Shown: positions 16,794 to 22,925 of the stretch, in pieces
Layout of the letters: the number at the start of each line of letters is the position of its first letter
Position numbering within the stretch: the first letter of the stretch is position 1
From: a virus
Direction: 5' to 3' (one strand)
IMG/VR virus record: IMGVR_UViG_3300032360_000046
Coordinates: 1 to 25,577 of that record
DNA: 25,577 bases
Notes under the pieces: model-generated
Database searches by the model: none
What the model saw: only the letters and a program-made list of their open reading frames with translations
What the model was told of the DNA's origin: nothing
Translations under genes and position numbers: made by a program

Positions 16794-17663
16794 ATGAACA
16801 ACCCATATTTAGTTGACGGTCCAACGTGCATCAGTTTCAGTGGTGGCAGAACATCTGCCTTCATGTTGTACAAGGTGCTCGAAGCTTATGACGGATACCT
16901 TCCTGAAGATTGTGTTGTTACCTTTGCGAACACAGGGAAAGAGATGCCGGAGACATTGGACTTTGTCCAGGCTTGCTCCGAGAACTGGGATGTCCCTATC
17001 GTCTGGCTTGAAAGAGAGATCAAAAGAAATACAGAAGAAAAGCCTATGTACCTGTACGAAACACGGGTTGTCGATCACGAAACCGCAGCAAGAAATGGTG
17101 AACCCTTTACTGCACTGATCAAAGCAAGAAGATATGCCCCGAACCCAGTCGCACGATTTTGTACCCAGGACCTGAAGATCAAAGCAATTGGCCAGTATCT
17201 ACGCGAAGAACGAGGATTCCCAAACCCCTATGTGTGCTTGATCGGCATCAGAGGTGATGAGCAACGCCGAGCAGCCAAGATGCATGGCACTGTCGCAGAA
17301 TTTCAGGAACGACACCTGCCGTTATGGCTTGACGGCATCACGAAAGAGGATATCTATGAGTTCTGGATCAATCAAAACTTCGATCTGCAACTACCCAACA
17401 ACAACGGTACAACAGACTGGGGCAACTGTGATCTGTGCTTCCTCAAAGGACTGGGTAAGAAGTTGAGCATCATCGAGGCAAGACCGGACCTCGCTGACTG
17501 GTGGAGTGAACAGGAGCAGACATTGAGTAAGGCGGTTGGCAAAGGCGCATCGTTCAGAAGTGATCAACCCACCTATGCAGATATGAAGGTCATAGCATCA
17601 GACCAGGGAAGCTTGTTCGGATTCGGAGATGATGAGTCAATACCCTGTTTCTGTGGAGATTAG
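16794..17663 (+). CDS. PP-loop ATP pyrophosphatase, PAPS-reductase/DndC-like, of the 7-deazaguanine cassette
   Basis: A 289-aa protein with the PP-loop SFSGGRTSA (14-22) that binds ATP and adenylates a substrate, followed by FANTGKE (44-50) and RFCTQDLK (121-128, Cys123), typical of the PAPS-reductase superfamily. Extra cysteines occur at NCDLC (Cys212, Cys215) and at the very C-terminus (Cys285, Cys287 in PCFCGD), possibly a metal site. The ECGxH catalytic motif of true PAPS reductases is absent, so sulfate assimilation is doubtful. It is the first gene of a tight operon with dpdA, queC and queE, so a step in making, activating or modifying the deazaguanine base is a fair guess. Family secure, reaction unknown. 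Confidence 0.8.
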   Translation: MNNPYLVDGPTCISFSGGRTSAFMLYKVLEAYDGYLPEDCVVTFANTGKEMPETLDFVQACSENWDVPIVWLEREIKRNTEEKPMYLYETRVVDHETAARNGEPFTALIKARRYAPNPVARFCTQDLKIKAIGQYLREERGFPNPYVCLIGIRGDEQRRAAKMHGTVAEFQERHLPLWLDGITKEDIYEFWINQNFDLQLPNNNGTTDWGNCDLCFLKGLGKKLSIIEARPDLADWWSEQEQTLSKAVGKGASFRSDQPTYADMKVIASDQGSLFGFGDDESIPCFCGD

Positions 17664-17666
17664 AAG

Positions 17667-18437
17667 ATGATTCACTACCATGGCATTCCCATATCCGGCG
17701 CAGAAAAAAACCAGATGTCATTGTCTGGGAAGCATGCGTTTGTGTCGTTTGCTGGGGCGCAGCATACCGCCTTGGTTGCTGAGATATGTCAGTCATTCGC
17801 CATTGATAACGGTGCTTTTTCTGCATGGAATTCAGGCAAGGATTTTGATCTTCATGGGTTTGCTACTTTCGTCGAGACATGGCATAGACACCCAGCTTTT
17901 GACTGGTACATCTTGCCCGATGTTATTGGTGGTAACCACCTTGAGAATGAGGAGTTGAGAAACACATGGCGCAAGAAAGTTTCAGACGACATCTGGAACA
18001 AGGGTGTGCCAGTGTGGCATCTACATGAACCAATAGAAGTGTTAAAGGACATGATCAATATGAGTAGGTTGTACAACCAATTCCCCAGGGTAGCATTCGG
18101 ATCAGGTGATTTTGCAGATGTCGGTACGCTTAAATGGTGGAACCGAATGGCTCAGGCAATGGAGGTGTGTTGCGATGACCAGGGTCGCCCGAAGGTTAAA
18201 TTGCATGGCTTAAAAATGCTTGATCCAACCGTGTTCTCGCACCTGCCACTGTCATCAGCAGACTCAACAAACGTAGCTCGAAGCTGTGGCCTTGATAAAG
18301 CATGGGGTGGCCCGTATGCACCCGCTACCGTTTACGGTAGAGCCTTAGTGATGATGGAACGGATCGAGATGCATGCGTCAGCAGCACGATGGTCAAACAC
18401 AAATGGTATTAATAGAAACCTGGAGTTATTCGGATGA
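17667..18437 (+). CDS. dpdA: DpdA-like DNA 7-deazaguanine transglycosylase (TGT-related)
   Basis: A 256-aa protein whose motifs fit the short phage DpdA branch of the tRNA-guanine transglycosylase fold: AIDNGAFSAW (45-54, Asp47), LPDVIGG (83-89, Asp85), WHLHEP (117-122), VAFGSGDFADVGT (142-154), KLHGLKMLDP (178-187) and SADSTNVAR (197-205). DpdA enzymes swap guanine in DNA for a 7-deazaguanine such as preQ0. A GGAG ribosome-binding site precedes the ATG. The gene ends in an ATGA overlap with queC, whose product would supply the base. This is recognition from motif layout and context, without a database search; catalytic residue identities are inferred from TGT. Confidence 0.8.
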   Translation: MIHYHGIPISGAEKNQMSLSGKHAFVSFAGAQHTALVAEICQSFAIDNGAFSAWNSGKDFDLHGFATFVETWHRHPAFDWYILPDVIGGNHLENEELRNTWRKKVSDDIWNKGVPVWHLHEPIEVLKDMINMSRLYNQFPRVAFGSGDFADVGTLKWWNRMAQAMEVCCDDQGRPKVKLHGLKMLDPTVFSHLPLSSADSTNVARSCGLDKAWGGPYAPATVYGRALVMMERIEMHASAARWSNTNGINRNLELFG

Positions 18438-19138
18438 GTGCAGATGCGTTGGTTGTTTTTTCAGGGGGACAGGATTCCACAACTTGCCTGTATTGGGCGA
18501 AAGAAAAATGGGATCATGTCGAGGCAATAACATTTAACTATGGGCAAAGGTCTTGTTGGTTGGAAGTTGAAGCAGCAAGTGACATAGCAGAGAATGCTTG
18601 TGTCACACATGAGATTGTCGATATTCCCGATTGCCTGGTCTCATCCAGTCCATTGACAAGCGACACCCAACTGGAAGCCTATGACTCATTCGAGGAGATG
18701 GAAGACACAATCGGGACACGCAGAGAGATGACGTTTGTGCCGATGCGCAATGCATTATTCTTGACACTCGCAGCGAATCGAGCAGAAGCTAAAGGCATCA
18801 GCAACATCGTAACCGGTGTCTGCCAGATGGATAATGCCAACTATGACGATTGCCGACATGTGTTTTTATATGCAACAGAACAGTATATCAATACAGCATT
18901 GGGACACGATCATCGAGGTACGCAATGGATCAGCATCCATGCACCCCTTTTGTACATGAGCAAAGCACAGAGCATCTACCTAGCACAATCAATACCAGGG
19001 GCGTTTGATGCATTAGGTAATTCTGTCAGCTGCTATGAAGGATTCTTCCCCCCTTGTGGAAAGTGTCACGCATGTGTATTAAGAGCAGAAGGATTTAAGC
19101 AAGCTGATGTACCCGATCCATTACTTCAGAATGTATAA
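18434..19138 (+). CDS. queC: QueC, 7-cyano-7-deazaguanine (preQ0) synthase
   Basis: A 234-aa protein with the PP-loop SGGQDST (10-16), the NYGQR motif (35-39), VPMRN (102-106), GVCQMDNANYDDCR (128-141) and the zinc site Cys200-x7-Cys208-x2-Cys211-x2-Cys214 ending CVLRAEGF, all as in QueC. QueC uses ATP and ammonia to turn 7-carboxy-7-deazaguanine into preQ0 through an amide intermediate. Length is normal for the family. The start overlaps the dpdA stop as ATGA, and queE begins inside its last codons. In phages, queC beside dpdA marks DNA modification rather than tRNA queuosine synthesis. Confidence 0.93.
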   Translation: MSADALVVFSGGQDSTTCLYWAKEKWDHVEAITFNYGQRSCWLEVEAASDIAENACVTHEIVDIPDCLVSSSPLTSDTQLEAYDSFEEMEDTIGTRREMTFVPMRNALFLTLAANRAEAKGISNIVTGVCQMDNANYDDCRHVFLYATEQYINTALGHDHRGTQWISIHAPLLYMSKAQSIYLAQSIPGAFDALGNSVSCYEGFFPPCGKCHACVLRAEGFKQADVPDPLLQNV

Positions 19139-22044: not shown

Positions 22045-22925
22045 CGCGCCTCCTCTCCGTAATGGTTAATGTGATTCGCGTAAATTATTTCTCCGATTCG
22101 CTGCACAAGTTGAGGGACGACTGCGTTTCCAAGGGATCTAATTCTGTCCACCCGATTGGGAATCCCATCAACCACTCTGTCCACGCAGGGTTCAACTTGC
22201 CAGTTGGTCGGTGTGGGTTCTTGACCTTCGCACAAAGGTACGAGCGATTGTGCATGTGCGTATGACTCTTGCTCCCCACCGGTCCACAGTCCTTGTACTC
22301 GCTCGCCCGTGGTGTCGGCCATAACCGTATTGGATTGTCCGAAAGACTGTCCTTCACTGCCGATCCAATGTTCCACCCGTGATCTCCTGTCTTGTGAGAT
22401 GGTGCAATCTCCTCGCCTCCAGTCATTTTCGTCGGCGTGGGCCACAATCCAGCATCTGTCTCTGCGATGTCTCGCTTCGACGGCACAAGCCGGTATAACA
22501 AACGATTGGACTTGGTAACCTTCGTTTTCCAGGTCAGCGCACACATCGTCGAGTGCCATGCCGATGAACCCAGAAACATTCTCACCAATGACCCAAGTTG
22601 GACACGACTCTTGGATGATTCGAAACATTTCAGACCAGAGATCACGGTCATCTTTATTTCCAAGTTGTCTGCCTGCCTGTGAGTAGGGTTGGCAAGGGAA
22701 TCCTCCGCAAATAACATCAACTGATTTATATTGGCTTCCATCTAAACTCCTTATGTCTTCATGAATAGGTATGTCAGGCCAATGCTTGGCCAAGATCTGT
22801 CTACAGAATGCGTCCTTCTCACACATGGCAATGGTCTCCATCCCTGCCCACTCAAGGCCAAGAGAAAACCCACCAATACCAGAAAAAAGATCAAGAACTT
22901 TCATCGTCGGTCCCCATCCATTCAT
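22041..22925 (-). CDS. C5-cytosine DNA methyltransferase
   Basis: A 294-aa protein with the ordered C5-methylase motifs: LDLFSGIGG (11-19, motif I, SAM binding), GGFPCQPYSQAG (74-85, motif IV, catalytic Cys78), ENV (115-117, motif VI), RHRRDR (152-157, motif VIII) and RIRSLGNAVVPQ (261-272, motif IX). The target-recognition region between VIII and IX is short (about 100 residues). The start at 22925 has AGAGG five bases upstream; the ATG at 22904 is an alternative closer to motif I. It would methylate phage DNA, plausibly against host restriction. No cognate restriction enzyme is seen. A second long frame is nested in the gene. Confidence 0.92.
   Translation of the reverse strand: MNGWGPTMKVLDLFSGIGGFSLGLEWAGMETIAMCEKDAFCRQILAKHWPDIPIHEDIRSLDGSQYKSVDVICGGFPCQPYSQAGRQLGNKDDRDLWSEMFRIIQESCPTWVIGENVSGFIGMALDDVCADLENEGYQVQSFVIPACAVEARHRRDRCWIVAHADENDWRRGDCTISQDRRSRVEHWIGSEGQSFGQSNTVMADTTGERVQGLWTGGEQESYAHAQSLVPLCEGQEPTPTNWQVEPCVDRVVDGIPNRVDRIRSLGNAVVPQLVQRIGEIIYANHINHYGEEAR
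22085..22741 (-). CDS. Nested protein in an alternative frame of the methyltransferase gene
   Basis: A 218-aa reading frame on the same strand, shifted by one base, almost wholly inside the methyltransferase gene (from its codon 62). It has its own ribosome-binding site, AAGGAG (22752-22747), five bases from the ATG at 22741. The product has motifs I recall from phage proteins linked to C5 methylases: LTWKTKVTKSNRLLYRLVPS, two LWPTP segments (about 10 residues each) and a C-terminal LNPAWTEWLMGFPIGWTEL. The protein-like composition and motif repeats suggest real coding. A shadow effect of the conserved methylase frame cannot be excluded without comparative data. Confidence 0.62.
   Translation of the reverse strand: MEANINQLMLFAEDSLANPTHRQADNLEIKMTVISGLKCFESSKSRVQLGSLVRMFLGSSAWHSTMCALTWKTKVTKSNRLLYRLVPSKRDIAETDAGLWPTPTKMTGGEEIAPSHKTGDHGWNIGSAVKDSLSDNPIRLWPTPRASEYKDCGPVGSKSHTHMHNRSYLCAKVKNPHRPTGKLNPAWTEWLMGFPIGWTELDPLETQSSLNLCSESEK

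Follow-up and report, generated by a model that had tools for sequence, protein, structure and literature searches.

In the two-polypeptide C5-cytosine methyltransferase M.EcoHK31I, the larger polypeptide contains motifs I-VIII and X and the smaller one contains motif IX (PMC3404938). Lee, Kam and Shaw (1995) reportedly found the small gene to be nested in the large one in a different frame, and both proteins to be needed. The predicted recognition domain of M.EcoHK31I is in the larger subunit, not the smaller (PMC3404938), which counts against the recognition role that we propose below for a smaller subunit. M.EaeI is another two-polypeptide C5-methyltransferase of this kind. M.AquI is also split, and its smaller polypeptide has part of the recognition region as well as motif IX (PMC3404938). 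The multispecific phage C5-methyltransferases SPR, phi3T and rho11s have several exchangeable recognition units of ~40 amino acids between motifs VIII and IX. Long overlapping genes on the same strand are thought to be rare and are usually defended case by case.

Here we describe a locus from a 25.6-kb virus record (IMGVR_UViG_3300032360_000046); the whole stretch of 25,577 nt is called the window. We refer to the methylase frame as alpha and to the frame nested in it as beta (Table 1). The two overlapping frames of this locus likely encode a C5-cytosine DNA methyltransferase made of two polypeptides, with beta as the small subunit. That both products are expressed, that they assemble, that both are needed, that the units in beta recognise DNA, and that the enzyme counters restriction are all inferences.

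Table 1. Features of the overlapping methylase locus, in window positions.
Feature	Position	Strand	Remark
Alpha (large frame): C5-cytosine methyltransferase, 294 aa	22041..22925	-	motifs I, IV (PCQ), VI (ENV), VIII, X
Beta (nested frame): 218 aa, ATG start, +1 relative to alpha	22085..22741	-	proposed recognition/motif IX subunit
Shine-Dalgarno-like hexamer AAGGAG	22747..22752	-	5 nt before nested ATG
WPTP unit 1, nested residues 100-140	22322..22444	-	unit in nested protein
WPTP unit 2, nested residues 141-181, widely shared ASEYKDCGPVGSKSHTHM..SYLCA unit	22199..22321	-	
Motif IX-like KLNPAWTEWLMGFPIGWT, nested residues 182-199	22145..22198	-	profile-profile match to canonical motif IX
Alpha linker of ~90 aa, residues 171-260	22146..22415	-	same DNA as nested WPTP/IX part; replaces small domain
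Alpha motif X LGNAVVPQ, residues 265-272	22110..22133	-	begins just past nested motif IX on DNA

The beta ORF is entirely within the alpha ORF, of which it covers 74%; its frame is one base ahead. A preliminary description, made from the sequence alone, had reported a nested 218-aa ORF over about three quarters of the methylase gene, with two LWPTP segments and a WLMGFPIGW ending. All of this held: the LWPTP segments are at nested residues 99-103 and 140-144 and the ending is at residues 190-198. The suggestion that these motifs are linked to phage methylases held as well, as the nested product matches 124 phage records (E <= 1e-3) and the family phrog_1008, which is annotated as “DNA methyltransferase” (E = 1.5e-30, residues 4-202). 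We assign the nested product to PHROG 1008 because this profile match is significant over most of the protein. Comparisons to Pfam, NCBIfam, PADLOC and PDB sequences gave nothing meaningful for the nested protein.

Alpha has the features of a catalytic core. It matches phrog_363 (E = 1e-80) and PF00145 (E = 4.9e-45), the latter only over profile positions 1-169 of 324, or up to mid-profile. Motifs I, IV (PCQ), VI (ENV), VIII and X are all present, which places alpha among the C5-methyltransferases, and P77, C78, E115, N116, R155, R157, G266 and N267 are invariant in 72 sequences. In the AF2 model of alpha, pLDDT is mostly above 90 for residues 11-165, and the motif X helix is confident (pLDDT 97 at residues 271-280). 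The model superposes on M.HhaI with Z of 25.7 over 212 residues. Residues 171-260 have pLDDT of about 50 and almost no secondary structure, so that a disordered linker is predicted to stand where alpha's DNA-recognition domain should be. Of 129 nested-type loci, 127 have no motif IX in the alpha frame; L045, one of the two that do, has an indel that swaps the frames. If we compare alpha tails to the tails of canonical methylases, they match only at motif X (E = 2e-7). An enzyme made of one chain should have both motif IX and a recognition domain in alpha, and this expectation was not met.

The nested frame is open for longer than expected. Its +1 run is 218 codons, as compared to a mean of 109 in synonymous-codon shuffles (P of about 0.01 for this gene alone), and the +2 run of this gene showed no excess over such shuffles. 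Across 130 relatives, the +1 run was above the shuffles at P < 0.05 in 96%, and the +2 run in 7%. The preliminary description also noted AAGGAG five bases before the ATG and called it a strong ribosome-binding site. The hexamer is present, but it is not diagnostic: of 125 nested-type loci, 69 have a Shine-Dalgarno-like site before a +1 start codon in this stretch, and so do 8 of 17 control methylases that have no +1 ORF. As the controls carry such sites nearly as often, we rejected the site as proof of a nested gene.

Relatives were collected by scanning IMG/VR proteins, which gave 47 loci, and by a pattern scan, which gave at least 594 confirmed relatives, of which 80 were kept. Among 135 fetched loci, the nested profile overlaps the methyltransferase core in 129, invariably in frame +1; no overlap in any other frame was seen among these loci. 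The other six are mostly broken copies or copies at contig edges. Overall, well over 100 sequences from phages and plasmids have this layout, and the overlap recurs across phages and plasmids of Bacillota, Bacteroidota, Pseudomonadota, Actinomycetota and cyanobacteria. Nested-type pairs are also on plasmids or chromosomes of Nostoc, Bacteroides, Amycolatopsis and Bacillota. The same family and nesting are found in Paenibacillus phage Shelly, where the nested gene is annotated as “g55 internal gene,” and in K1 coliphage K1G, where it is annotated as “putative Mte8-like protein.” The nested gene has thus been annotated before, in some phages and in PHROGs. In the literature that we searched (subscription journals and preprints were outside its reach), we did not find a paper on the function of the nested pair or on the overlap.

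Some loci have unusual structures. In L025, L045 and L231, a single indel swaps the two frames and disrupts both genes together, which could be sequencing error or decay. In L032 (1571-3245), an amino-type DNA methyltransferase-like gene separates an N-terminal piece of alpha from what is left of the C-terminal parts of both frames. In methylases from Picosynechococcus plasmids (L137, 2426-3536, and L148), the +1 frame is divergent and its end, with YMGFP, resembles motif IX.

To see selection in the two frames, note that in the +1 arrangement, position 3 of an alpha codon is position 2 of a nested codon, and alpha position 1 is nested position 3. Between the window and its close relatives, alpha positions 1/2/3 differ at ~10/7/45% of sites before the overlap, at 19/8/21% over motifs IV-VIII, and at 40/14/12% in the WPTP/motif IX region. 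Past the nested gene, they differ at 11-41/11-20/59-65%, with position 3 the fastest again. In other words, the fast codon position flips inside the overlap, from alpha position 3 upstream to alpha position 1 (nested position 3) in the WPTP region. Amino acid identity in the WPTP region among close relatives is 79-82% for the nested frame versus 55-58% for the alpha frame.

For a broader sampling, we used 47 independent pairs and considered four-fold sites at which the amino acid is unchanged. In nested-type loci, synonymous change at these sites was 54.5% before the overlap, 28.8% over motifs IV-VIII, and 30.4% in the tail. In control methylases without a +1 ORF, it was flat across the same three regions (66.7, 63.8 and 66.4%), although the control has only six pairs and these are at somewhat greater divergence. 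Phage methylases with an in-frame motif IX had been considered as the negative control, but they turned out to have +1 ORFs of their own, so we replaced them with methylases that have none. Phase counts on distant pairs were too saturated to separate the groups.

Codon choice at motif IX bears the mark of both frames. The nested V/T codon there never ends in T, which would put a stop in alpha, and in 105 of 112 cases it ends in A or C, which gives arginine in alpha. Overall, because of the codon-position, identity and four-fold data, we conclude that both frames are constrained and that the nested frame dominates the constraint in the recognition region. At the level of sequence, this shows that the nested ORF is real and under selection; its expression has not been shown. 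The preliminary description had proposed a true overprinted pair if both frames are conserved, and this is supported. It would have been refuted by frequent stops in the nested frame of relatives, which we did not see; there is no peptide evidence.

The nested ORF might instead be a functionless by-product of methylase codons, or a frame shadow. In its favor, other phage methylases also show long +1 runs (median 160 codons), and some have weak matches to the N-terminal half of the nested profile. Against it are the flip in codon position, the reduced four-fold change with a flat control, the excess over shuffles in +1 but not in +2, and a copy of the nested family that does not overlap a methylase (in L056, described below). 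We consider the frame shadow to be refuted at the sequence level and all but excluded.

When the nested profile is aligned with the C-terminal tails of conventional methylases, the best match falls on motif IX itself (E = 1.5e-4), where nested GKLNPAWTEWLMGFPIGWTEL pairs with the canonical RRLTPxECERLQGFPDDWT. The score of 31.8 compares to 11.1 +/- 2.3 for column shuffles (maximum 18.2), and 0 of 200 shuffles reached it. A previous comparison, of six sequences, had also pointed to this position, though with less support. We therefore consider the smaller polypeptide to have motif IX, with moderate support, given that this is one short stretch of similarity. Because the nested protein carries the motif IX that alpha is without, we read beta as a subunit of the enzyme, which is sharper than the “accessory to methylation” that was first suggested.

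Upstream of motif IX, each nested protein has 1-5 WPTP units with a median length of 41 amino acids and with WPTP at the start of the unit. Whole units have been gained or lost among close relatives (L002, L006, L011 and L013). In L017, nested residues 140-199 are 85% identical although alpha is only 43% identical. More broadly, of 475 unit pairs with at least 65% identity, 221 are from loci whose alpha-core identity is 0.55 or less. Gain, loss and sharing of units is the pattern expected of recognition units under exchange, but we have no recognition data, so this role is inferred. No recognition-domain fold was visible in the nested protein alone, for which the AF2 model was poor (pLDDT 59); this also ruled out a fold search with that model.

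The WPTP and motif IX part also occurs without overlap. On a Paenibacillus bovis plasmid (L056, 2438-2839), directly behind an alpha/beta pair, lies a protein with WPTP and motif IX whose DNA does not also encode a methylase. It may be a second, exchangeable specificity subunit. The homologue scan found no viral relative of this stand-alone copy.

A second alternative is that the nested protein is real but independent (for example, an anti-restriction protein or a regulator) and that its resemblance to motif IX is coincidental. This would fit with the unexplained N-terminal half of beta, with the +1 ORFs without a WPTP/IX part in phage methylases that have an in-frame motif IX, and with the lack of a recognisable domain in the AF2 model of the nested protein alone. 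Against it, alpha is without motif IX where the WPTP form of the nested protein is present (127 of 129), the profile match falls exactly at motif IX, and alpha has no ordered small domain. We consider an independent protein to be unlikely.

Under our preferred reading, the two-polypeptide enzyme, alpha would make the AdoMet-binding catalytic core (motifs I-VIII), followed by the disordered linker and motif X. Beta would start separately inside alpha, and its C-terminal half would be the row of WPTP units and then motif IX. Normally, these elements make up the small domain between motifs VIII and X that recognises DNA. The two proteins would come together on DNA as an active enzyme, and swaps of WPTP units may change or broaden the target sequence and so protect phage DNA from host restriction. 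This model is supported by the conservation of and constraint on both frames, by the absence of motif IX and of an ordered small domain from alpha, by the motif IX match in beta, by the gain, loss and sharing of units, and by the non-overlapping protein behind the pair in L056. Against it, there is no fold for beta, the motif IX stretch is short, and data on expression or activity are lacking. Also, no role is assigned to the part of beta that lies over motifs IV-VIII, its N-terminal half. Since phage methylases with motif IX in alpha have a related +1 ORF, it is possible that beta does something else too.

A third alternative is that frameshifting fuses the alpha core to the WPTP units and motif IX in one chain, with no separate nested protein. 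Such a chain (the core and the C-terminal half of the nested protein) would look like a conventional methylase as far as motif IX, and the single-indel alleles L045 and L231 put motif IX into the frame of the alpha core. However, there is constraint on the nested frame even over motifs IV-VIII, before any point at which a shift would be useful; ribosomes would have to shift back in a second event to read motif X; the nested frame has its own start and a Shine-Dalgarno-like site; and the copy in L056 does not overlap. The window's own frames do not yield the fusion by a single shift word. We consider such frameshifting very unlikely.

The related +1 ORFs form a second class. In phage methylases with an in-frame motif IX, the DNA for motifs IV-VIII tends to contain a +1 ORF as well, about 150-210 codons long (L143, L158, L163, L170, L198, L216 and others in L149-L228). 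In roughly two thirds of these methylases, the ORF exceeded the shuffles in length (P < 0.05), and four-fold change was 27.7% over the +1 ORF versus 59.7% before it and 63.3% after it. The product is phrog_16143, and many of these proteins end like YFLSxKACxGILRRAEKRGKKLP. Thus, the N-terminal half of the nested family exists apart from motif IX; its role remains open. A bolder reading, against which we lean slightly, is that phage C5-methyltransferase genes generally carry an ancient selected +1 gene. In the first class, this gene would have acquired the recognition domain and motif IX of the methylase frame and become a modular specificity subunit, while in the second class it would be a shorter protein of unknown function and the methylase would still have its motif IX. 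If so, then evolution has shifted the specificity module from one frame to another within one stretch of DNA.

If the two-polypeptide model is correct, many annotated phage “cytosine methyltransferases” are half-enzymes, the annotated gene alone would give an inactive protein, and the WPTP units are a natural library of exchangeable specificity units. The recurrent overlap can be tested with a standard methylation assay. Elsewhere in the window (16794-19138, + strand), PAPS-reductase-like, queuine tRNA-ribosyltransferase-like and QueC-like genes are in a row. These are possibly a cluster for 7-deazaguanine DNA modification, in which case, together with the cytosine methylase, the phage genome would be doubly modified.

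How does this locus compare to the known systems? Like the larger polypeptide of M.EcoHK31I, alpha has motifs I-VIII and X and is without motif IX, and there are two separate, overlapping coding frames, as judged by selection on both rather than by expression. Unlike M.EcoHK31I, the pair is phage-borne, no endonuclease was noted adjacent to it, and the nested frame has 1-5 WPTP units. The assignment to the M.EcoHK31I type is by analogy and rests on the motif layout; it does not involve a sequence comparison with the subunits of M.EcoHK31I. As with M.AquI, one enzyme would be formed from two polypeptides, but M.AquI has motif X in its small subunit, whereas the present locus keeps motif X in alpha and has a nested small gene. 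The consecutive units of ~41 amino acids, 1-5 per protein and shared between divergent loci, would resemble the arrays of the multispecific enzymes if they recognise DNA, for which we have no data. In SPR, phi3T and rho11s, the units are part of the methylase chain, while here they are in a second polypeptide, encoded in the other frame.
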